Part shown: one piece after another, positions 54,353 through 64,000 of the stretch
Layout of the letters: each line of letters opens with the position of its first letter
Numbering within the stretch: position 1 is the stretch's first letter
Source: Phaeovulum vinaykumarii
GTDB lineage: Bacteria > Pseudomonadota > Alphaproteobacteria > Rhodobacterales > Rhodobacteraceae
Direction of reading: 5' to 3'
Length of the DNA stretch: 64,000 nucleotides
Assembly (NCBI RefSeq): GCF_900156695.1
Contig: NZ_FTOM01000001.1
Location: 744,001 to 808,000, forward strand
Program-made: the position numbers and the translations under genes
Notes under the pieces: generated by a model
Told to the model about the DNA's origin: nothing
Seen by the model: the letters and a program-made list of their open reading frames with translations, nothing else
Databases searched by the model: none

Positions 54353-55663
54353 TCAGAGCAGGAAAAGCGTCACCGCCGGCACCGCCACCAGAAGCGCCAC
54401 GCGCGCCATGTCGGCGGCCACGAACCACAGGACCGCGCCATAGGTCGCCGAGATCGGCACCGTGCGGTCCAGAGCCTGGATGACAAAGAGGTTCATCCCC
54501 ACCGGCGGCGTGATCAGCCCCACCTCGACCACGATCAGGACAAGGATGCCGAACCAGATCGCCACATGATCGGGCGCAAGGCCGAAGTCGAGGCCCATGA
54601 CCAGCGGAAAGAAGATCGGGATCGTCAGCAGGATCATCGACAGGCTGTCCATCAGGCAGCCCAGCACGAGGTAGAGCAGCAAGATCAGCCCCAGCACCGC
54701 CCAGGGCCCCAGCCCCGAGGCCGCGACCAGCGAAGACAGCTCCTGGGGCACCTGCGCACGCGCCAGGAAGCTGTTGTAGAGCGCCGCGCCCAGCAGGATG
54801 AAGAAGATCATCGCCGAGGTCCGCGCCGTCTCGAGCAGCGCCGCGCCCAGCCGGGCAAGCGTGATCCCGCCGCCGGCAAGGGCGATGACGAAAGCGCCGG
54901 CCGCGCCGACGGCGGCGCCCTCGACCGGGGTGAACCAGCCGCCATAGATCCCGCCCACGACCAGCGCGAAAAGCCCCGCCACCGGCCAGATGCGGACCAG
55001 CGCAAGAAGCCGCGCGCGCCAGGGCAGCGCCGGGGTGGGCTGACCCTCATCGGGGTGGGCACGGACATAGAGCGCCACCGCCCCGGCATAGAAGAGCGCC
55101 GCCAGAAGCCCCGGCACCATGGCCGCCAGGAACAACTGAGCGATGTTCTGCTGGGTCAGGATCGCATAGACGACCAGAACGACCGAAGGCGGGATCAGCA
55201 CACCCAGCGTGCCGCCCGCCGCCAGCGTCGCCGCCGCGAAGCCGCCCGAATGGCCGGCGCGGCGCAATTCGGGCAGCGCCACCTGCCCCATCGTCGCCGC
55301 CGTGGCCAGCGACGAGCCGCAGATCGCCCCGAAGCCCGCACAGGCACCGATGGCGGCCATCGCCATGCCGCCGCGCCGATGCCCGATCACCGCACGCGCC
55401 GCGGCAAAGAGCGCCGCACTCATCCCCCCCAGCGCGGCCAGGTTCCCCATCAGCAGGAACATCGGGATCGCCGCGAGGTTATACGAGGCAAAGGTCGAGA
55501 AGCTCTGGCTCTTGAGCATGGCCAGCACCGTGGCCGGCCCGCCGGTCAGCACCATCAGCCCACCCGCGCCCACCGCCAGCATCGCCAGCCCGATCGGCGC
55601 GCGCAGGAAGATCAGCACCAGAAGGAGCGGAAAGGACACAAAGCCCAGCGTCAGATCGCTCAT
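54353..55663 (-). CDS. dctM: TRAP transporter large permease (DctM type)
   Basis: Twelve-helix permease of 436 residues in a tripartite ATP-independent periplasmic transporter driven by sodium or proton gradients. Typical stretches are PIGLAMLAVGAGGLMVLTGG, IPMFLLMGNLAALGGMS, SSLATAATMGQVALPELRR, GGTLGVLIPPSVVLVVYAIL and VGLITPPVGMNLFVIQALD. The last two are the family's paired motifs. Start ATG 55663 overlaps the DctQ stop by ATGA. It is the last gene of the dctP-dctQ-dctM unit. Confidence 0.94.
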   Translation of the reverse strand: MSDLTLGFVSFPLLLVLIFLRAPIGLAMLAVGAGGLMVLTGGPATVLAMLKSQSFSTFASYNLAAIPMFLLMGNLAALGGMSAALFAAARAVIGHRRGGMAMAAIGACAGFGAICGSSLATAATMGQVALPELRRAGHSGGFAAATLAAGGTLGVLIPPSVVLVVYAILTQQNIAQLFLAAMVPGLLAALFYAGAVALYVRAHPDEGQPTPALPWRARLLALVRIWPVAGLFALVVGGIYGGWFTPVEGAAVGAAGAFVIALAGGGITLARLGAALLETARTSAMIFFILLGAALYNSFLARAQVPQELSSLVAASGLGPWAVLGLILLLYLVLGCLMDSLSMILLTIPIFFPLVMGLDFGLAPDHVAIWFGILVLIVVEVGLITPPVGMNLFVIQALDRTVPISATYGAVLWFVAADMARVALLVAVPAVTLFLL

Positions 55664-56223
55664 GCCGGCTCCTCGCGCGGGGCAAGTGCCGAAAGCGCGG
55701 CCACGAGCGCCGCCCCCCAGGCCCCGGCCAGCGCCAGCGCATAGCCCCACCAGACCGGAATGCGCAGAAGAAAGGTGGTTTCGCCGCTGTCCATCTGTGC
55801 CAGCATCCCCGCCCCCAGCCGCCAGGCAATCATCGCCAGCGCCAGCGTCATCGCAATATCCCAAAGCCGGTCCAACGCGGCCAGTGCGCGCGCCGGCAGC
55901 CAATGGGTCAGCGCCTCGACGCGGGCATGTCCGGCGCTGGCCTGCGCCCAGGGCAGGAAGGCGAAGATGACAAAGCCCGCGCCCAGCTCGATCACCTCAT
56001 AGGTGGCGCGGATCGGGCCGATCCCCGAGCCGCGGATCGCGGCCGCCCAGTCGGGCGCGGTCGCCGCCAGCCAGGGCGAAAGCCCGATCTTGGCCACGGC
56101 ATTGCCCGCCACCGACAGGCAGACCAGCCCCACCCCGGCCAGAAGCCCCGCGCCACCCGCCAGGGCCAGCCCCTGCGCCAGGCGCGCACCCAGCCGGGCG
56201 GCGGATCGACGGGCGTCGTGCAT
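55660..56223 (-). CDS. dctQ: TRAP transporter small permease (DctQ type)
   Basis: Four-helix membrane protein of 187 residues that binds the large permease. Hydrophobic helices appear near 15-38, 68-92, 118-138 and 150-175. The conserved region ASAGHARVEALTHWLPARAL and the late PVWWGYALALAG fit DctQ. ATG 56223 lies 8 bp after the dctP stop and gives the expected length. The second segment is unusually long, with PDWAAAIRGSGIGPIRATYE inserted between helices 1 and 2. Confidence 0.88.
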   Translation of the reverse strand: MHDARRSAARLGARLAQGLALAGGAGLLAGVGLVCLSVAGNAVAKIGLSPWLAATAPDWAAAIRGSGIGPIRATYEVIELGAGFVIFAFLPWAQASAGHARVEALTHWLPARALAALDRLWDIAMTLALAMIAWRLGAGMLAQMDSGETTFLLRIPVWWGYALALAGAWGAALVAALSALAPREEPA

Positions 56224-56231
56224 CGTCCCTC

Positions 56232-57302
56232 TCAGCCGCCGTGGCGGGCGATGGCCGCGCGCACCCGCGCCAGCAGATCCGTGCCGTCGATGCCGGCCTC
56301 GGCCATCTCGGACAGCCAGCGCTCGATCACCGGGCCACCCGCGGCTTCCCAGCGCGCGGCCTCGGCGGCATCGAGCATGGTGATCTGGTTGCCCAAGTCC
56401 CGGGCCACCTCGCGCGCGGGGGCGTCCGCGCCCTGCTGGAGCGCGCCGGCCTGCGCCGAGAAGGCCGCGCCCGACTGCGCCTCGATCACCGCTTGCAGAT
56501 CGGCGGGCAGGCGGTCGAAGGCGGTGCGGTTCATCGCCAGGATGAAGCTGGCCACATAGATCCCGCGGTCGGGGAATTCGGTGTGGTAATGCACCAGCTC
56601 CGGCGCCTTGATCGAGGAGGTGACCTCCCACGGCAGAAGCGCGCCGTCGATCACCCCGCGCGCCAGCGCCTCGGGGACGGCGGGCACGGGCATGCCCAGC
56701 GCCTGCGCGCCCATCCCCTCGAGCATCAGCGCCGTCGCGCGCGAGGGGGCGCGCAACCGCAGCCCGGCCATGTCCTCGAGCCGCGCGACGGGCCGCGCGA
56801 CATGCAGCACGCCCGGCCCGTGCACCCAGGTTCCCAGAAGCTTCATCGCCCGGAATTCGGTTGCGGAAAGGTCGCTCTCGGCGATCTCCCACAAGGCGGC
56901 CGAGGCGCCGCGGGCATCGCGCACCTGGAAGGGCAGCTCGAAGGCCTCGATGCGGGGGAACCGCCCCGGCGTATAGCCCGGCAAGGTCCAGATGATGTCG
57001 ACGATCCCGTCGGTGATCTGATCGATCAGCTCGGGAGGCTTGCCGCCCAGTTGCATCGAGGGAAAGCGCTGGATCCTGAGCCGGCCCTCGGAGGCAGTCT
57101 CGATCGCATCGGCCCAGGGGTCGAGGATCTGCGCCGGAACAAAGCTCTGTGCCGGCAGGAACTGATGCAGGCGCAGGACGTGCACATCGGCCGCGCGCAA
57201 GACCCCCGGCGCGGCCAGGGCCGCCGCGGCGCCCAGCGCCCCCAGCGTCAGGCGGCGGCGCCCCCGATCGACACCCCCGTCATGGCTCTGGCGATGAGAC
57301 AT
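56232..57302 (-). CDS. dctP: TRAP transporter periplasmic binding protein (DctP type), Tat signal
   Basis: Substrate-binding protein of 356 residues for the TRAP system. A twin-arginine signal (RRRLTLGALGAAAALAAPG) suggests folded export through Tat. The mature protein shows LHQFLPAQSFVPAQILDPWA, the conserved LRIQRFPSMQLGGKPPELID and FELPFQVRDARGASAALWE, and a late PVPAVPEALARGVIDGALLP. The ligand-binding Arg is likely in LRLRAPSRATALML. The ligand is unknown; organic acids are usual. ATG 57302 is preceded by AAGGGGGGAAG. It heads the dctPQM operon. Confidence 0.93.
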   Translation of the reverse strand: MSHRQSHDGGVDRGRRRLTLGALGAAAALAAPGVLRAADVHVLRLHQFLPAQSFVPAQILDPWADAIETASEGRLRIQRFPSMQLGGKPPELIDQITDGIVDIIWTLPGYTPGRFPRIEAFELPFQVRDARGASAALWEIAESDLSATEFRAMKLLGTWVHGPGVLHVARPVARLEDMAGLRLRAPSRATALMLEGMGAQALGMPVPAVPEALARGVIDGALLPWEVTSSIKAPELVHYHTEFPDRGIYVASFILAMNRTAFDRLPADLQAVIEAQSGAAFSAQAGALQQGADAPAREVARDLGNQITMLDAAEAARWEAAGGPVIERWLSEMAEAGIDGTDLLARVRAAIARHGG

Positions 57303-57389
57303 GGTCTTCCCCCCCTTGCGGTCTTGGGCACGAGCGGCCGCCCGGATGCGGCGCCGGCCCGGTCCCGGACGGCGGGCACTATGACGACA

Positions 57390-57418
57390 GGGGGGCGGGA
57401 CTGTCCAGCCCGCCCCCC
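57390..57418. other. Hairpin between the HIT gene and dctP
   Basis: A perfect 10-bp stem GGGGGGCGGG / CCCGCCCCCC with a 9-base loop lies 35 bp after the stop of the minus-strand HIT gene and 88 bp before dctP. It lacks a U tract. It may end HIT transcription inefficiently or act in the dctP leader. Confidence 0.4.
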
Positions 57419-57452
57419 GCATTCCGGTGCCCGATTCGGGCCGGCCGCGCGA

Positions 57453-57833
57453 TCACGCTTTCAGGAGCATCCGCCCCAGCGGCCGGCCGGCCAGGATATG
57501 CAGGTGGTAATGCGGCACCTCCTGCACCCCGTCGCCGCCGGCGTTGGTGATGGCGCGGAAGCCCGCGCCGTCTTCGCCCGGCATCACCTTGAGCCGGGCG
57601 CAGACCTCGGCCACCAGACGGGTGAAGCCCAGGATCTCGGCGTCCGAGGCATCGCGCGCGAAATGGGCGGCATCGACATAGGCGCCCTTGGGAATGACCA
57701 GCACATGATGCGGGGCCTGCGGCTGGATATCGTTGAAGGCCAGGGCGTGCTCGTTCTCGGCCACCTTGTTGCAGGGGATCTCGCCGGTCAGGATTCGGGC
57801 AAAGATGTTGGTCGTGTCATAGGCATAGGGCAT
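57453..57833 (-). CDS. HIT-family nucleotide hydrolase
   Basis: Histidine-triad protein of 126 residues, HINT-like, hydrolysing nucleoside phosphoramidates or acyl adenylates. The triad motif is VPHYHLHILAGR (HxHxH), placed near residue 107. The N-terminus TNIFARILTGEIPCNKVAEN and the FNDIQPQAPHHVLVIPKG stretch are classical. ATG 57833 follows GAAAGGA; a longer frame to 57869 would overlap the upstream glycosyltransferase gene. It is 26 bp downstream of that gene and likely cotranscribed. Confidence 0.93.
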   Translation of the reverse strand: MPYAYDTTNIFARILTGEIPCNKVAENEHALAFNDIQPQAPHHVLVIPKGAYVDAAHFARDASDAEILGFTRLVAEVCARLKVMPGEDGAGFRAITNAGGDGVQEVPHYHLHILAGRPLGRMLLKA

Positions 57834-57858
57834 CGTCGGTCCTTTCGAGGATGGGCGA

Positions 57859-59436
57859 TCAATCGACAAACAGATAATCTGTCTCGGCGATCTGACGGGC
57901 GGGATCGGCCTCGATCCCGAGGAAATTCATCAGCGCGCGCGCGTTCTCGGCAACGTCGGCACCCTGCCGCATCCGCGCCAGATGCGCAAAGCCTGCGTCA
58001 AGGATCCGGTCGGTTTCGAAGCGCATGTCGTAACGTATCGTGGGCAGGAGGCGGGCGATCACCTCAGGCGGGGTGCTCTCGCCGGCCAGACCGACCCGGC
58101 GGGCATGACCGACCAGATACTCCTCGGAGAAGTCGCATTCGACCTCGAGAATGCGGACCTCGGCCTTGTCGGCGGCGAAATCCTCGAGCAGCTCGAACGA
58201 ACCGGGATCGAGACAGATCACCAGCCGTTCGGTCCCGCTCAGGTCGAACAGCATCCGCATCAGCGCCCGGCGGTGGCGGTGGCGCTTGTCCATGCGGGTC
58301 TGGATGCCGCCCAGATCGGGCAGCGGGCAGCTGTCCTCGTTGAACAGATATTCGACGCCGGGAATGCCGGTCACCTGGTGGATGCGCTCGACCAGCCGCT
58401 TGGCGACATGCCATTTCTTGCACACCACGATCAGCAATTCGCGCTCGCGGCCCAAGCTTGATTCGGTCTCCCAGAAGCGCGGCGCGAACCGCCGGCCGAT
58501 CCGGCCCCGCCCGGTCAGGAAGGTGAAGAGGTTGCGCCCCTCGTTCGAGATCGGGAAATCCTCGGTGTCGGCGGCCCAGAGCGCGCCCAGCCGGTCCTTG
58601 AGCGCGCGCGCCTCGGGGCTGATCTTGCGGGCGAACAGGTAATCCTGGGCCAGCAGCAGGTCGTAATGATCGTTGTAGAAGGTCAGCGGCATCCCGTAGT
58701 CGGTGAACATCAGGAAGGTCAGCGTGCGCGCGCGGATCTCGACCTCGGGGACCAGATGGAAGACCAGCGTCTGGAAGAAGGTCTCGTCGGGGATCCAGGT
58801 GGTCGAGAAGAACCGGACGATGTCGCGGCGCTGGCGGATGAAGTCGAGAAGCTTCTCGACCGTCTCGCGGCGCAGGCACCACCACTGGCTGCCGATGCGC
58901 ATCTCGATGTCGGCGGGCACGGCGCGCGTCAGGCCCAGCCGGCGCTGGACCTCGTAGCTGAAATAGAACAGGCCCTTGCGCTTGCGCTCGTTGAACCAGT
59001 GCCGATAGATCAGCCGCTCTTCCTTGAAGCCGGTCTTGATCCAGTCGGACTCGAAGAAGTCGAAGCTCTCGATGTAGTCGACGCTCTCGCGGTCCAGGAA
59101 GGCATGGGCAAAGCGCGCCGACTTGATCTGCATGCAATCGCCCGAAAGCATGTAGAAATGCGTGGCCGCGGGAAAGGCCTCGCAGGCGGCGCGCAGGGCG
59201 TTGAGGGTGGCCGCCACCAGCGACCATTCCCCCCAGCCGCAGCGGACACGCCGGCGCGCGAAGGTCACGCGCGGGTTCGGGTCCAGCGCGTCGCGGATGC
59301 GGCGGTAATCCTCGGGGCGGGCGCGGCGGTCGAAATGGATCGAGATGAAATCACCCGTCGCGGTCAGCCGTTCGGCCTGCGCGATGATCCCTTCGGGATC
59401 CTTGTGGCACAGCAGGATGAAGGCAATCCTGGCCAT
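57859..59436 (-). CDS. Glycosyltransferase, core-2/I-branching (GT14-like) domain with C-terminal extension
   Basis: Probable cytosolic glycosyltransferase of 525 residues. The N-terminal half (about 1-290) resembles beta-1,6-N-acetylglucosaminyltransferases of the core-2/I-branching type: ARIAFILLCHKDPEGIIAQA, HFDRRARPEDYRRI, THFYMLSGDCMQIKS and GSQWWCLRRETVEKLLDF. The C-terminal half (about 300-525) is a second globular region of unknown function (a DUF5928-type module, from memory) with VCKKWHVAKRLVERIHQVTG. No membrane segment is seen. The acceptor is unknown. A sulfotransferase gene is divergent 148 bp away, suggesting a sulfated surface glycan. The start ATG 59436 is clear. Confidence 0.82.
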   Translation of the reverse strand: MARIAFILLCHKDPEGIIAQAERLTATGDFISIHFDRRARPEDYRRIRDALDPNPRVTFARRRVRCGWGEWSLVAATLNALRAACEAFPAATHFYMLSGDCMQIKSARFAHAFLDRESVDYIESFDFFESDWIKTGFKEERLIYRHWFNERKRKGLFYFSYEVQRRLGLTRAVPADIEMRIGSQWWCLRRETVEKLLDFIRQRRDIVRFFSTTWIPDETFFQTLVFHLVPEVEIRARTLTFLMFTDYGMPLTFYNDHYDLLLAQDYLFARKISPEARALKDRLGALWAADTEDFPISNEGRNLFTFLTGRGRIGRRFAPRFWETESSLGRERELLIVVCKKWHVAKRLVERIHQVTGIPGVEYLFNEDSCPLPDLGGIQTRMDKRHRHRRALMRMLFDLSGTERLVICLDPGSFELLEDFAADKAEVRILEVECDFSEEYLVGHARRVGLAGESTPPEVIARLLPTIRYDMRFETDRILDAGFAHLARMRQGADVAENARALMNFLGIEADPARQIAETDYLFVD

Positions 59437-59584
59437 TCAACGCAGCCCGCGCGTGTCATGTTGCGGCATAACGGACACACCCTTCCTGAGACACGTTGAA
59501 AAGAAACGCCTTCTTTGCTTTCTAGGGGCTAGTATATCCCGAACGCGCGGGCAAGCGCAGCGGGCCGCACAAAGGACGACGAAG

Positions 59585-60403
59585 ATGGGTTTTCCCGGCA
59601 CATGGATGACGGAAAGCGAAAGCATGGTCTATCGCGTGGTGCCGAAATGCGCCTGCTCGACCATCGGCCAGATCATGTTCTATTCCGATCATGGCCGCTT
59701 TTACGACGGCGACATCCATGATTCGACCGCCGGGCTGCACAAATGGTCCCAGCCCGACAGCCAGAACCCCATCGAAAACAACGTCCATGCGCACAAGTCG
59801 CTGGCCTTCACCTGCGTGCGCAACCCCTATGCGCGCATCCTGTCGTCGTTCTTCGACAAGATCGCGGGCATCCAGCGCAACGGCAAGCGCTACCGCGGCA
59901 ACCTGGTCCCGCAGCTGGTCCAGCGCTACGGGATCGAGGTCGGCAGCCCCGAAGACGGGTTCGAGTTCGACCAGATCAAGTCCTTCCGCCGATTCCTGCT
60001 GTTTGCGCGTGACACCATCCGCTGGCGCCGCCCGATGGAACCCGACATCCACTGGTCGGCCATGTCGGGGCATATCTCGACCTTCATCGTGAACGGCGGG
60101 CGCTATGACCAGATCTTCTTCACCGAGAAATTCAACGAGGGCATGCAGAAGGTTCTGGACGCGGTCGAGACGCCGGTGCCGGTCGATCTGTCCGCGATCC
60201 CGCGCTTCAACGAATCCGAAGGCCACGGCCCCAAGCGCGCCCACAAGGTCAGCGATTACTTCGACGACCTGTCGCGCCACCTGATCTGGGAGATCTACAA
60301 GAAGGACTTCCAGCTCTTCCGCTACGATTTCGACAACCCCGACAACAAGATGCCGCTGGGCGAGGTCGATATCGACGAAGTGCACGCGAAGCTGGGCCGC
60401 TGA
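59585..60403 (+). CDS. Sulfotransferase, family 2 type
   Basis: PAPS-dependent sulfotransferase of 272 residues, probably acting on a carbohydrate. The 5'-phosphosulfate loop is VPKCACSTIGQIMF (about 18-31) and the 3'-phosphate-binding motif is CVRNPYARILSSFFDK (about 78-93). The rest resembles carbohydrate sulfotransferases of the chondroitin/HNK-1 type, which are common in marine Rhodobacterales. No signal or membrane segment is visible, so the substrate would be cytosolic. ATG 59585 lies after an AT-rich leader. The divergent glycosyltransferase is the likely partner. Confidence 0.87.
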   Translation: MGFPGTWMTESESMVYRVVPKCACSTIGQIMFYSDHGRFYDGDIHDSTAGLHKWSQPDSQNPIENNVHAHKSLAFTCVRNPYARILSSFFDKIAGIQRNGKRYRGNLVPQLVQRYGIEVGSPEDGFEFDQIKSFRRFLLFARDTIRWRRPMEPDIHWSAMSGHISTFIVNGGRYDQIFFTEKFNEGMQKVLDAVETPVPVDLSAIPRFNESEGHGPKRAHKVSDYFDDLSRHLIWEIYKKDFQLFRYDFDNPDNKMPLGEVDIDEVHAKLGR

Positions 60404-60434
60404 GGCGCCGCCGCGCCACAGGGCGCGGGCCTCA
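60401..60434. other. Composite hairpin joining two convergent stop codons
   Basis: TGAGGC (60401-60406) pairs with GCCTCA (60429-60434), and an inner 7-bp stem CCGCGCC / GGCGCGG (60411-60417 with 60422-60428) has a 4-base loop. The outer arms include the stop codon of each convergent gene. There is no U tract on either strand. Confidence 0.5.
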
Positions 60435-62534
60435 GGCGTTCAGATCCTTGAGCAGACGACCATGCTTGCGCACCTCCTCGAGGACGGCGCCGAAGGTGGT
60501 CAGCCCGCGCGCCTTCAGCGCCGGCAACAGCTTGAGGAACGCATCCGCCGTCGCCAGCGTGTCGCCGATGGCGGTGTGGCGGGCCTCCTCGGGGATGGTG
60601 ATGCCCAGCCGATGCGTCAGCGCATCGAGCGAATGGCTCTCGGACTGGCCGAAGACCACCGCCGACAGCAGCACCGTGTCCAGCACCGGATTGTCGAAGA
60701 CCTTGCCGATCCCGGCCTCGTGGCGGCGCAGGAATTCCATGTCGAAGGGCGCGTTATGCGCCACCAGCACCGCGCCTTCGGCGAATTTGTGAAAGCGCCG
60801 GCCCACTTCGGCAATGTCGGGCGCGTCGGCCACCATCGCCTCGGTGATGCCGTGGACCTCGGTCGCGCCGGGCGGAATGGGCCGGCCCGGATTGACCAGC
60901 GTGTCAAAGACCTCGGTCTCGACGCGGCGGCCGTTGACGATGCGCACCGCGGCGATCTGGACGATCTCGTCCCCGTCCGAAGGCAAAAGGCCCGTCGTCT
61001 CGGTGTCGAAGACGACATAGGTCAGATCCTCGAGCCGCGAGGCCACCACCTCGGCGGTCGGCGCCTTGGACAACAGTTCGAAATCATAGACCACCGCGCG
61101 CGGCACTGCGGGCGGACGCGCGGTATCGCGGCGCGCCTCGCGCAGCGGCAGGCAGATGCGCGGCGCGGGACCGCCCTCGGGCCAGCATTCGGTGGCATGG
61201 ACCGACAGCACGCGATGGCCGGTCACATCGGCCATGCCCACCTCGAGCGGCGCGGCCAGCCAGCGTTCCAGATCGGCCAGCGCGACCGGAGCCCCCCGCC
61301 AGCCGATCGAGATCAGCGCGCCCGCCCCGTCGGCCTCGACGCGCAGGGTGAAGCCGTCGCGCCCGCCTTCCTCGGCGCGCAGGATCAGCGCCGCGATCAG
61401 CGCCACGATCTCGAAGCCGTCGCAGCGCAGGATCAGATCCTCGGTCTCGGCCTCGACGCGCAGCTCGACCGCCGCCAGCCGCGCCTGCACCGCCGCGCTC
61501 AGGTCGGCGGCGCGGATCAGCGACAGCGGCCACCAATCGGCGCGGGTGGCGTCATGGCGTTCGGACATGTCCTTGATGGCCGTGCCCAGCGCCGCAGCCT
61601 CGGTGCGCATGGCGGTGCACATCCCCTCGGGCAGAAGGCCGCCGGGCAGCGTGTCGCCGGTTTCCGCCACCACCCCGATCAGGCTTTGCAGATTGGCCGC
61701 CGGATGGCGCAGCCGTTCGAAGAATTCGTCCATCAGGCGTTCGCGCGCGGCATGGGCGGCCAGATCGCCGGTCACGTCGCGCAGGGTCAGCACATAGCCC
61801 GGCGCGCCCGCCCCCGGCGTCTGCGACGGGCACAAAAGCCGCATCCGCGCCGCCAGAACCCGCCCCGAATCCGTGGTGGCGCACAGAAGGTCGGTCGCCA
61901 CATCCGGATCCGCGGTGGCGATCAGGCGCGAATAGGCGTGCCGGATCGGCGCCTCGTGCAGGTAATCGAAGACGCGCCGGTCAAGCCCGGGCGCATGGGC
62001 GGCATCGAAATGCCCCAGCAGGTCCACCGCCTGCCCGTTGTAGAACACCAGCTTGTGGCGCGGCGTGCACAGAAGCACCCCCACCGGCACATCGGCCAGC
62101 AGCGTCTCGAGCCAGTCCTTCTCGCCGGCCAGACGGGTGGTCTCGCGCGCGACGGCCTCGGCCAGGGCGTTGCGGGTCTGCGACAGGTTTTCCGTCACCG
62201 CGGCCGCGGCCGGGGCCAGATCGCCCAGATACCGCGCCGGGGCATGGTCGATCTCGGAGCCGACATCGGCATGCGCACGCGCGCGCATCCCCCCCGCCAG
62301 CCGCTCGATCGGGCGTGCGACGTTTTCGTCGAAGAGATACCAGACCCAGGTGATCAGGCCGATGATGGCAAAGCCTGCCGTGGCCCCGCCGATGATGAAG
62401 CCGTTGAGAACCGACGGATCGCCCAGCCGGTGATAGCCGAAATAGAGCCCCGCCCCCAGCGCCGCGACATTGCCTGCCGCGAGCGCCGCGAAGAACAGGA
62501 AGACGCGCAGCCGCAGGCTGAGGCGGGCGATCAC
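60432..62534 (-). CDS. Membrane sensor-like protein fused to a DEDDh 3'-5' exonuclease
   Basis: Protein of 700 residues with an unusual order. Two membrane helices (about 8-30 and 43-67) are followed by a HAMP-like linker (ENVARPIERLAGGMRARAH), a PAS domain (about 140-260, DVPVGVLLCTPRHKLVFYNG), a degenerate dimerisation/kinase region (about 270-450) and a DnaQ-like exonuclease (about 510-690). The exonuclease is complete: FDTETTG (Asp, Glu), HNAPFDMEFL (Asp) and HTAIGDTLAT (His, Asp). The H-box equivalent reads ERLRHPAANL, with Glu where the phospho-His should be, so it probably does not autophosphorylate. The start is GTG 62534, overlapping the response regulator stop (GTGA). It would act at the membrane on small or single-stranded nucleic acid; function unknown. 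Confidence 0.86.
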   Translation of the reverse strand: MIARLSLRLRVFLFFAALAAGNVAALGAGLYFGYHRLGDPSVLNGFIIGGATAGFAIIGLITWVWYLFDENVARPIERLAGGMRARAHADVGSEIDHAPARYLGDLAPAAAAVTENLSQTRNALAEAVARETTRLAGEKDWLETLLADVPVGVLLCTPRHKLVFYNGQAVDLLGHFDAAHAPGLDRRVFDYLHEAPIRHAYSRLIATADPDVATDLLCATTDSGRVLAARMRLLCPSQTPGAGAPGYVLTLRDVTGDLAAHAARERLMDEFFERLRHPAANLQSLIGVVAETGDTLPGGLLPEGMCTAMRTEAAALGTAIKDMSERHDATRADWWPLSLIRAADLSAAVQARLAAVELRVEAETEDLILRCDGFEIVALIAALILRAEEGGRDGFTLRVEADGAGALISIGWRGAPVALADLERWLAAPLEVGMADVTGHRVLSVHATECWPEGGPAPRICLPLREARRDTARPPAVPRAVVYDFELLSKAPTAEVVASRLEDLTYVVFDTETTGLLPSDGDEIVQIAAVRIVNGRRVETEVFDTLVNPGRPIPPGATEVHGITEAMVADAPDIAEVGRRFHKFAEGAVLVAHNAPFDMEFLRRHEAGIGKVFDNPVLDTVLLSAVVFGQSESHSLDALTHRLGITIPEEARHTAIGDTLATADAFLKLLPALKARGLTTFGAVLEEVRKHGRLLKDLNA

Positions 62535-62947
62535 GGGGCGGCCCCGCCGTCGGGCGCCAGCGCCGGCGCATCAAGGATACGGTGCACCTCGGCGCGCAAT
62601 TCGCCCAGCTCGAAGGGTTTCGAGATGAACCCGTCCGCGCCCAGCGCCAGACCCTTGCGCCGCTCCATCGCCGAGCCGCGCGCGGTCATCATCAGGATGC
62701 GCACATCCGCCAGCGCCGGATCCATGCGCACGTCCTGGCAGATCTCATAGCCCGAGACGCCGGGCAGCATCACGTCCAGCAACACCAGATCGGGGCGCGT
62801 GGCACGGATGCGGTCGACGGCGCCGGCGCCGGTGTCCAGCCGGGCATGGTCATAGCCCTCGCGGCTGAGCAGATAATCCAGCGCGATGGCGATGTTGTCC
62901 TCGTCCTCGACGACAAGGACACGCGGTTTCCGGCCTGCCTCACCCAT
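62531..62947 (-). CDS. Receiver-only response regulator
   Basis: Single-domain CheY-like protein of 138 residues. The acidic pocket is LVVEDED, the phospho-acceptor is Asp58 in LVLLDVMLPGVSG, the Thr is in MMTARG, and the Lys is in FISKPFELGELRAEV. No DNA-binding or enzymatic output domain follows. ATG 62947 is chosen because AGGGGGTG stands 5-6 bp upstream; a GTG at 62953 would overlap the upstream gene by 4 bp. It is tightly coupled to the sensor-exonuclease gene and is a likely partner or target of a kinase outside the window. Confidence 0.9.
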   Translation of the reverse strand: MGEAGRKPRVLVVEDEDNIAIALDYLLSREGYDHARLDTGAGAVDRIRATRPDLVLLDVMLPGVSGYEICQDVRMDPALADVRILMMTARGSAMERRKGLALGADGFISKPFELGELRAEVHRILDAPALAPDGGAAP

Positions 62948-62949
62948 TC

Positions 62950-63483
62950 TCACCCCCTGTCACACGCAGCGCGCAGCATCGGGTCGCCGTCTGGCAGCGG
63001 GCGCCATTGCGCGCCGCCCTTGAGGTTCCCCTCGCGGTCGATGCCGCCCCCCCCGATCAGGTCGGCGCGCGCAGAGGCGGCACAGTCAAAGGCGGTGGGC
63101 ACGGCCTGCATGGATTGCCAGCGCCCGATCAGCAGCACCTTGGCCAGCGCGATATCGGGGGCGGCGGCCAGACGCTCGACCCGGTCGCGGTCGATGGCCA
63201 TGAAGCGCGTGGTGATCGGCGCGAGATAGGTCCAGGGCCGCCAGGGCGCGCTTTCCTCGACCGGGTTGAACACCACAAGGCTTTCGGGAAGGGCGGCGCG
63301 CAGGCGCGGATACCACGAATATTCCGACCAGATCGTCGACACCAGCATCGACACGCCGACCGCGGCCGGCATGATCCACTTGGGCAGGCGCATCCCCATC
63401 CGGCGCGCCACATGCCCGAAGGCGAAGATCACACAGAACGCCAGCGCGCCCGATGCAAGCATGGTGATGAGATCATTGGTCAT
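62950..63483 (-). CDS. Small membrane protein of unknown function
   Basis: Protein of 177 residues with two N-terminal helices (about 5-25 and 37-52, MPAAVGVSMLVSTIWSEYSW) and a soluble C-terminal part. I do not recognise a family. The C-terminal region contains FMAIDRDRVERLAAAPDIAL and two cysteines (FDCAAS, RAACDRG). It sits between the DUF294-type gene (13-bp gap) and the response regulator (3-bp gap or slight overlap), so it belongs to the same operon. Translational coupling suggests it is part of the signalling module. Confidence 0.75.
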   Translation of the reverse strand: MTNDLITMLASGALAFCVIFAFGHVARRMGMRLPKWIMPAAVGVSMLVSTIWSEYSWYPRLRAALPESLVVFNPVEESAPWRPWTYLAPITTRFMAIDRDRVERLAAAPDIALAKVLLIGRWQSMQAVPTAFDCAASARADLIGGGGIDREGNLKGGAQWRPLPDGDPMLRAACDRG

Positions 63484-63496
63484 TCTTCGTGGTCCT

Positions 63497-64000
63497 TCAA
63501 CTCAGCGGGCCCTTGCCGTGACCGGCCGAGCTTTGCATCGTGCGCACCACGACGAAGGCATCGCGCAGGTGGCTGCGCTCGAAATCCGACAGGTCCGAGG
63601 GCGCAAGGTAATTGTCCGGCTTGCGCCCCGAGCGCACCAGATGCGCCTGGTTCTCGAGCCGCATGGTGGCGATCAGGTCATAGGCCTCGATCAGGTCGCG
63701 CGCCCCCGAGGCCGAGATGATGCCCGCATCCTCGGCGCCTTGCAGGCGGGCGCGGGTGTTGACTTCGGGCAGGCGCCCCTGAAGCGCATAGATGCGCGCC
63801 AGATCGGTGACCGGCACGACGCCGTTATGCTTGAGGTCGATATGGTTGCGGTGCTCGCCCGAGCGGATGGTGGCAAAGCCCCGGATCAGCCCCAGCGGCG
63901 GCGTATGCTTGAGGCTGTTGGACACCATATGCGCCACGAAGATCGAATTCTTGGCGGCGCTCTCGAGCGTCTCGGCCTGAAGGTCGTGATAGAGGCTGGC
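63497..64000 (-). CDS. DUF294-type predicted nucleotidyltransferase, C-terminal part only
   Basis: The frame is open from base 64000 to the stop at 63497, giving the last 167 residues of a larger protein. The text (LESAAKNSIFVAHMVSNSLK, TPPLGLIRGFATIRSGEHRN, IDLKHNGVVPVTDLARIYAL) matches the C-terminal DUF294 region of proteins that also have CBS, cyclic-nucleotide-binding and GlnD-like nucleotidyltransferase domains. An internal GTG/ATG near 63937 is not the true start because family sequence continues upstream. In related genomes such genes neighbour solute:sodium symporters and DnaQ-like exonucleases, which fits the genes downstream here. Confidence 0.82.
   Translation of the reverse strand, partial: ASLYHDLQAETLESAAKNSIFVAHMVSNSLKHTPPLGLIRGFATIRSGEHRNHIDLKHNGVVPVTDLARIYALQGRLPEVNTRARLQGAEDAGIISASGARDLIEAYDLIATMRLENQAHLVRSGRKPDNYLAPSDLSDFERSHLRDAFVVVRTMQSSAGHGKGPLS

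Follow-up and report, generated by a model that had tools for sequence, protein, structure and literature searches.

Membrane-anchored PAS protein with a kinase-like core and a DEDDh exonuclease domain, encoded beside a receiver and a DUF294 nucleotidyltransferase in Phaeovulum vinaykumarii

The stretch of DNA analyzed here (the window) comprises 64,000 nucleotides (nt) of Phaeovulum vinaykumarii (Rhodobacteraceae; assembly GCF_900156695.1, contig NZ_FTOM01000001.1, positions 744,001 to 808,000). Near its end lies a minus-strand gene that joins two transmembrane (TM) helices, a PAS domain, and a histidine-kinase-like middle to a DEDDh exonuclease, next to the gene for a single-domain response regulator. 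Their features, in window coordinates and protein residues, are as follows.

62534..60432, minus: DEDDh exonuclease-fusion gene; 700 codons, GTG start; order two TM helices, HAMP-like linker, PAS, DHp, CA, DEDDh
62331..62516, minus: two membrane helices, residues about 7-68, with a very short connecting loop (hydropathy and AlphaFold2, AF2)
62094..62330, minus: HAMP-like/signaling helix, residues 69-147 (AF2 helices 40-89, 98-103, and 106-147)
61773..62093, minus: PAS domain, residues about 148-254 (Pfam PAS_8, E 0.019, below the cut-off, and AF2 model)
61533..61772, minus: DHp-like helical hairpin, residues 255-334, presumed receiver docking site (alignments, AF2, Foldseek, profile search)
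61716-61718, minus: E273, at the phospho-His position of kinases (DHp column alignment)
61707-61709, minus: R276, nearly invariant (DHp column alignment)
61137..61529, minus: degenerate CA (ATP-binding fold) domain, residues 336-466 (VIA match to the PrrB ATP-binding domain, Z 14.9)
60435..61034, minus: DEDDh exonuclease domain, residues 501-700, with D510, E512, D598, H653, and D658 (Pfam, structure search, alignment)
62531..62953, minus: single-domain response regulator P0003, 140 aa, phospho-Asp at residue 60 (Pfam Response_reg, E 1.1e-25)

An earlier description made from the letters alone (the sequence-only reading) had placed the two helices, the PAS domain, the kinase-like middle, and the DEDDh set in one 700-residue frame. 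This was borne out: the gene is a single unbroken minus-strand open reading frame (ORF), and a plus-strand ORF of 762 aa (60462..62750) is likewise open across its span. Relatives carrying sensor and nuclease in one frame occur within the family and beyond it. The fusion is therefore not an artifact, and a frameshift or assembly join at the locus, a flaw that the sequence-only reading had raised together with absence of the fusion from all relatives, is ruled out. The protein is real and conserved, is not recognized by Pfam as a kinase relative, and lies outside the usual outputs of two-component parts, as had been proposed for a membrane-anchored PAS protein ending in a DEDDh effector. A literature search at the level of titles and abstracts, in which subscription journals were thinly covered, found no histidine-kinase/DEDDh fusion. 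Both the anatomy of the fusion protein and the link between receiver and DHp described below are well supported. In one draft genome (L013), the exonuclease and sensor halves occupy two overlapping frames, reflecting a split gene or an assembly error.

Hydropathy places hydrophobic segments at residues about 5-33 and 40-69, and the AF2 model, built on 98 sequences with a mean predicted local distance difference test (pLDDT) of 92.6 over the entire protein, begins with helices 7-37 and 40-89; both support the two membrane helices. Given the very short loop between them, a periplasmic sensor domain is presumably absent. A third hydrophobic peak, at residues about 366-387, corresponds to a helix within the CA-like domain of the model. 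Beyond the membrane helices, structure prediction of the full protein, proposed earlier as a check, returned a PAS-like fold, a hairpin, an alpha/beta domain, and the exonuclease. The PAS region (about 148-254) is itself modeled as a confident alpha/beta domain, agreeing with the earlier PAS assignment. For the linker, the predicted helices are present in the model, but Pfam gave no HAMP match in the 700-aa protein, and "HAMP-like" is a label given by eye.

Conservation was assessed in several sets of loci. The first set of relatives, the best 80 of 175, is skewed toward long forms closely related to that of the window. The family set comprises 143 loci, one genome per genus; 120 family loci were chosen from the stronger matches listed, with 181 of 394 genomes matching. 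Searches of the class and phylum matched 44 of 337 and 53 of 349 genomes, respectively (E ≤ 1e-28); in many of these, nothing but the exonuclease part matched.

The exonuclease domain is recognized by Pfam as RNase_T (residues 507-666, E 2e-39), and its five catalytic residues are present in all 215 rows of an alignment (200 distinct; 15 of the 78 genome-contig rows are identical to a family row), upholding the full DnaQ-type catalytic set noted earlier. The domain aligns with PolC at Z 25.4 (rmsd 1.8, 191 residues aligned), and the solved structures nearest to it in fold are 3'-5' exonucleases acting on RNA or DNA: PolC, DinG, DnaQ epsilon, and RNase T. Judged by these sequence features, the nuclease looks intact and apparently able to cut nucleotides. 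While it shares fold and catalytic residues with DnaQ/PolC-type DEDDh exonucleases, the window protein differs from them in being membrane-anchored, fused to a sensor and pseudokinase, and encoded beside a symporter.

Pfam found no HisKA or HATPase domain in the 700-aa protein (E up to 1), nor in five distant relatives. The VIA list for the full model was filled by exonucleases, and the middle was therefore folded and searched alone. In the AF2 model of the whole protein, the middle consists of hairpin helices 255-292 and 303-334 and an alpha/beta domain (338-469). All 50 Foldseek matches listed for the isolated model (pLDDT 92.8) are histidine kinases or kinase-core proteins, and its CA part aligns with the PrrB ATP-binding domain over 127 residues (Z 14.9, rmsd 2.6). 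The entire model matches WalK, VicK, LOV kinases, and DivL in Foldseek, as well as PolC, DnaQ epsilon, and RNase T, and a sequence profile of 71 relatives matches ZraS at 1.8e-9 and DivL at 3.3e-8. The isolated model, Foldseek, the CA alignment, and the profile thus all identify a histidine-kinase DHp-CA fold.

Its catalytic features are another matter. The phosphoacceptor column, which the profile alignment equates with the His of ZraS and Y550 of DivL, holds 109 Asp, 16 Glu, and 3 Ala in 128 family rows (94, 16, and 3 in the 113 distinct rows), and 27 Glu, 2 Asp, 2 Ser, 1 Met, 1 Ala, and 1 Gln in 34 distant rows (leaving aside L241, L265, L286, L289, L290, and L291); His occurs in neither group, and of the 162 rows taken together, 154 have Asp or Glu in this column and none has His. 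His277 of the window protein is found in 1 of 128 rows and lies in the wrong register for a phosphoacceptor. R276 is kept in 127/128 family rows and 33/34 distant rows; the same profile alignment pairs it with DivL R553 and pairs D/E273 with the DivL Tyr. Both marks of a DivL-type pseudokinase are present: a replaced His and a retained receiver-docking Arg. Canonical N and G boxes for ATP, as these patterns are generally known, were not recognizable by eye in the consensus. The kinase core therefore looks dead, a pseudokinase on present residues, and the protein would not be a sensor kinase with an attached nuclease. The kinase-like middle of the sequence-only reading survives as a fold and fails as an active enzyme; the latter is rejected on sequence.

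The receiver gene lies directly upstream of the exonuclease gene, with a 4-nt overlap, and its product has no other Pfam domain. Of 131 receiver rows (114 distinct), all but one retain the phospho-Asp (130 of 131). No cognate active kinase lies beside it, the sole kinase-like gene among the identified operon genes being the pseudokinase itself. The DHp was scored by hidden Markov models (HMMs), each built from one set of loci and run against the other. Left out of the scoring were L013 (two frames), L024 (no N-terminal match), L115, L122, and L055 (exonuclease end outside the stretch), L052, L097, L249, L254, and L259 (under 450 nt upstream), and L242, L248, L252, and L263 (family genomes already counted). 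At E<1e-3, these cross-trained models agreed with receiver presence in 137/139 family, 77/77 genome-contig, and 46/53 distant loci. Eight of the nine discordant rows have a receiver and a DHp that is weak by the far-trained and strong by the near-trained model; the ninth is L236. Final calls took the better of both models (E<1e-5), with training rows matching their own model by construction.

With these calls, DHp and an adjacent receiver gene are concordant in 191 of 193 loci: 89 have both, 102 have neither, and 2 have the DHp alone. Among the 139 scorable loci of the 143 in the family set, 78 encode short proteins (438-490 aa) and have no receiver upstream, 53 encode long proteins with a receiver, and 8 encode long or intermediate proteins without one. 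By column occupancy, the receiver-less long forms have lost the greater part of the DHp hairpin (about residues 281-310) and keep the CA domain; this group includes L052, which is contig-cut with its DHp intact. Of the 80 genome-contig loci, 78 are long with a receiver (L052 is cut by a contig end and L055 is unscorable). At greater distance, the receiver accompanies 35 of 37 loci with DHp and none of 16 without. Seven family members, along with L025 and L290, the last from another class, retain the CA and lack both DHp and receiver. In L290 precisely the DHp is lost, with no receiver nearby or within a 16-kb stretch (L303). A genome-wide search (E ≤ 1e-28) in 21 of the 86 DHp-less family genomes gave no receiver match in 19, which indicates that the gene was not merely relocated, and matches at 44-45% elsewhere in the genome in the other two; in DHp-bearing genomes it stood beside the exonuclease in 10 of 10. 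The concordance and the CA-only forms without a receiver suggest that, on the model of DivL-DivK, the receiver probably acts as input and the nuclease as output. Given the pseudokinase, a role of the receiver as downstream regulator appears less likely.

Neighboring genes, partly outside the window and missed by the sequence-only reading, place the exonuclease gene last in a probable symporter operon tied to DUF294. In L003, a stretch that continues past the window edge, the genes run acsA, adenylate-kinase-like, DUF4212, SSF symporter, cyclic nucleotide monophosphate (cNMP)-CBS-DUF294 nucleotidyltransferase, 177-aa membrane protein, receiver, and nuclease. Order, strand, and neighbors make it probable that these form one acetate/pyruvate symporter operon. 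The further features are as follows.

62950..63483, minus: 177-aa small membrane protein; no Pfam match (E up to 1) and no NCBIfam match (E up to 0.1)
63497..64000, minus: C-terminal part of the cNMP-CBS-DUF294 nucleotidyltransferase, continuing past the window (L003:7500-9344)
L003:11609-12313, minus: adenylate-kinase-like gene between acsA and DUF4212, kept in 60/62 loci

All eight genes occur in this order in 60 of 62 genome-contig loci with at least 6.5 kb upstream, and the symporter and DUF294 are each present in all 62. Among family loci with at least 1.4 kb upstream, DUF294 is found in the fetched stretch of 128/128; the 177-aa membrane protein likewise occurs in every one of the 128 family loci examined, whether or not the receiver is there. 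All 58 loci checked for the nucleotidyltransferase motif have it intact. The adenylate-kinase-like product may recycle AMP from acetyl-CoA synthetase.

Across 61 genomes (relatives and the source genome), a clear DUF294 match (E<1e-30) occurs in 27, of which 25 have the operon exonuclease (E<1e-40). Of the other two, G014 has a single 756-aa frame that encodes both, and in G038 a small exonuclease frame adjoins DUF294, so that an exonuclease accompanies DUF294 in 27 of 27; the operon exonuclease without DUF294 was found in none of the 61. Nine of twenty further places (L305, L308-L315) encode exonuclease, CBS, and DUF294 as a single chain, five of them with an SSF symporter in the stretch, and in another lineage (L295) a stand-alone 234-aa exonuclease lies in the order symporter, DUF294, exonuclease, acetyl-CoA synthetase. 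The association of nucleotidyltransferase and exonuclease is strong within the family and looser outside it.

Elements of this arrangement have precedents in Pseudomonas, where we take PA3232 to be the homolog of the P. putida exonuclease PP_0353. Published systems are described here as far as the available parts of the cited papers extend. PP_0353 is an RNase_T-type exonuclease sharing an operon with the CBS protein PP_0354 (PMC9927547). In P. aeruginosa, homologs of the pair adjoin actP and yjcH (PMC9927547), and PA3232-PA3235 cluster with actP (PMC9765439). The same linkage, to a CBS/nucleotidyltransferase protein and an SSS symporter, is found in the family studied here; the accessible account of PP_0353 differs in reporting RNase_T as its only Pfam match, without mention of membrane helices, PAS, kinase core, or receiver (PMC9927547). 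The CrbS/MxtR-CrbR/ErdR systems likewise govern acetate and pyruvate genes (PMC8402216, PMC5715377, PMC9927547), with ErdR binding the PP_0354 promoter (PMC8402216), but they act on transcription through an active kinase and a DNA-binding regulator, and no nuclease domain is mentioned in the parts available. A close parallel for the core is DivL, a Tyr-for-His pseudokinase that reads DivK~P via a docking surface, binding being disrupted by R553A (PMC4211667). Shared features are the His-less kinase core, the conserved Arg three positions further along, and PAS; the proposed docking of a single-domain receiver and reversal of information flow would be shared as well (PMC4211667). DivL differs in regulating the kinase CckA (PMC9430884) and in having Tyr; here, the core is joined to a nuclease, the residue is Asp/Glu, and receiver binding is putative.

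The account we favor, though we hold it with no more than even confidence, is that the protein is a membrane-anchored, signal-gated DEDDh exonuclease whose dead core serves as a receiver dock, paired with the DUF294 nucleotidyltransferase on a symporter-linked target. A histidine-kinase core that lost catalysis would have been retained for docking and relay. The orphan receiver would be phosphorylated by acetyl phosphate, a possible donor given the acetate kinase and phosphotransacetylase-family matches in the source genome, or, equally possibly, by another kinase. It would then bind the DHp hairpin, as suggested by the correspondence of R276 to the DivL docking Arg and of D/E273 to the DivL Tyr position, and receiver, PAS, and membrane helices would jointly shift the conformation of the attached nuclease. 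Nucleotidyltransferase and exonuclease might add and remove a nucleotide on one target tied to the Na+/acetate-pyruvate symporter, and uptake would thereby be set by acetate/pyruvate status. From these comparisons we infer the docking, the direction of information flow, the symporter substrate, the target, and the nuclease substrate; in particular, we infer that the exonuclease undoes the nucleotidyltransferase modification of a transporter-linked target. In view of the nucleotidyltransferase link, removal of what that enzyme adds is at least as likely as degradation of a small nucleic acid or messenger. The most novel version is unlikely, if still worth stating: an orphan receiver, possibly charged by acetyl phosphate, would dock on the dead kinase and so switch a membrane-bound DEDDh enzyme that strips nucleotides off a DUF294-modified symporter or partner protein. 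If true, acetate uptake would be governed by a reversible nucleotidylylation cycle, and the "DNA proofreading" fold would act as a protein de-nucleotidylase. On the favored account, a receiver protein would switch a nuclease instead of a gene. That account would add a non-transcriptional enzymatic output to the two-component repertoire, provide another lineage in which a receiver is read by a retained but dead histidine kinase, and assign a testable function to DUF294 and the operon exonuclease, both of which are found repeatedly next to symporters in several of the phylum's lineages.

Several observations weigh against this account. An exonuclease match without DUF294 occurs in 5 of 20 stretches (L307, L316, L319, L320, L324); of 12 longer stretches from other genomes, four (L294, L299, L300, L304) lack DUF294 and 8 contain it; and G034 has a further DUF294 gene next to a symporter (L317), with no exonuclease match within the 8-kb stretch. 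L236 and L265 keep the DHp without an adjacent receiver: for the former, a stand-alone receiver frame of 151 aa lies at a distance of 4.6 kb, on the far side of DUF294, and for the latter none was seen. L291, in which the DHp region is no longer DHp-like and the short upstream region has no receiver, was scored as having neither, but its longer stretch (L304) has a weak 29% receiver match about 1 kb upstream. Mutual information with average product correction was no stronger between DHp and receiver columns than in the exonuclease-receiver control. Short relatives lack DHp, CA, and receiver, making receiver input optional. A P. fluorescens protein is presumably the homolog of PP_0354. The identification of PP_0354 as a DUF294 protein draws, besides L295, on the annotation of that homolog (PMC5715377, in part), and P. 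putida growth on acetate was unaffected by deleting PP_0353 or PP_0354 (PMC9927547, in part).

A rather unlikely alternative, though one to be taken seriously, is that RNA is what the nuclease degrades, be it nanoRNA or mRNA from the operon or from central metabolism, under the same receiver and PAS gating, with the nucleotidyltransferase a separate regulator sharing the operon. The nearest solved folds, RNA and DNA 3'-5' exonucleases, are consistent with this, as are the distant stretches without DUF294, and the P. putida authors speculate on mRNA degradation in the available part of their report (PMC9927547); the nine single-chain fusions and the 27/27 co-occurrence instead argue for a task shared with the nucleotidyltransferase.

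It is more doubtful that DUF294 makes a small oligonucleotide messenger that the membrane exonuclease degrades, tuned by receiver and PAS, which comes nearest to the idea of the sequence-only reading. The polymerase-beta superfamily also includes messenger synthases, and the structure matches listed include the 3'-5' exonuclease Cap18 (7t2s), which we take to be a CBASS defence exonuclease. DUF294_C is the C-terminal domain of nucleotidyltransferases of that superfamily, but it is grouped with GlnD/GlnE-type protein modifiers (PMC3710099). No messenger receptor was identified, yet cNMP-binding and CBS domains sit in the DUF294 protein.

Improbable, in our view, is the explanation that DHp and receiver were lost together through shared ancestry or chance deletions, without any working contact. 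The independent events are few: 7 pairs lie on supported branches, and the best tree gives 10. The underlying tree was computed quickly under LG+G4, drew warnings that long branches meet, and excluded genome-contig loci other than L110. Moreover, one clade provides 73 of the receiver-less rows, and covariation gives no signal. Across the 7 supported pairs, however, a mean of 6.8 change in the same direction, 0.2 show no difference, and none are opposite (sign test, median p 0.016, range 0.016-0.031), the losses recur in different classes, and the CA-only forms show that it is the DHp that tracks the receiver. Loss of both by one deletion is rejected, since the receiver gene and the DHp are separated by about 760 bp of TM-PAS code that has been kept. 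That the protein is an active sensor histidine kinase, phosphorylating the receiver next to it and bearing the nuclease as an accessory, is scarcely credible: overall fold and gene layout resemble a kinase-receiver pair, but the phosphoacceptor His is found in 0/162 rows, the ATP boxes are unrecognizable, and neither the window protein nor any of five distant relatives matches HisKA or HATPase in Pfam.

In a separate tree, L110, from a record named Caenispirillum salinarum, carries a full-length copy with receiver and nests among family members, a possible horizontal transfer. Beyond the exonuclease gene, positions 55660-60403 of the window hold frames named by eye as TRAP-type binding protein, HIT-like, glycosyltransferase-like, and sulfotransferase-like.

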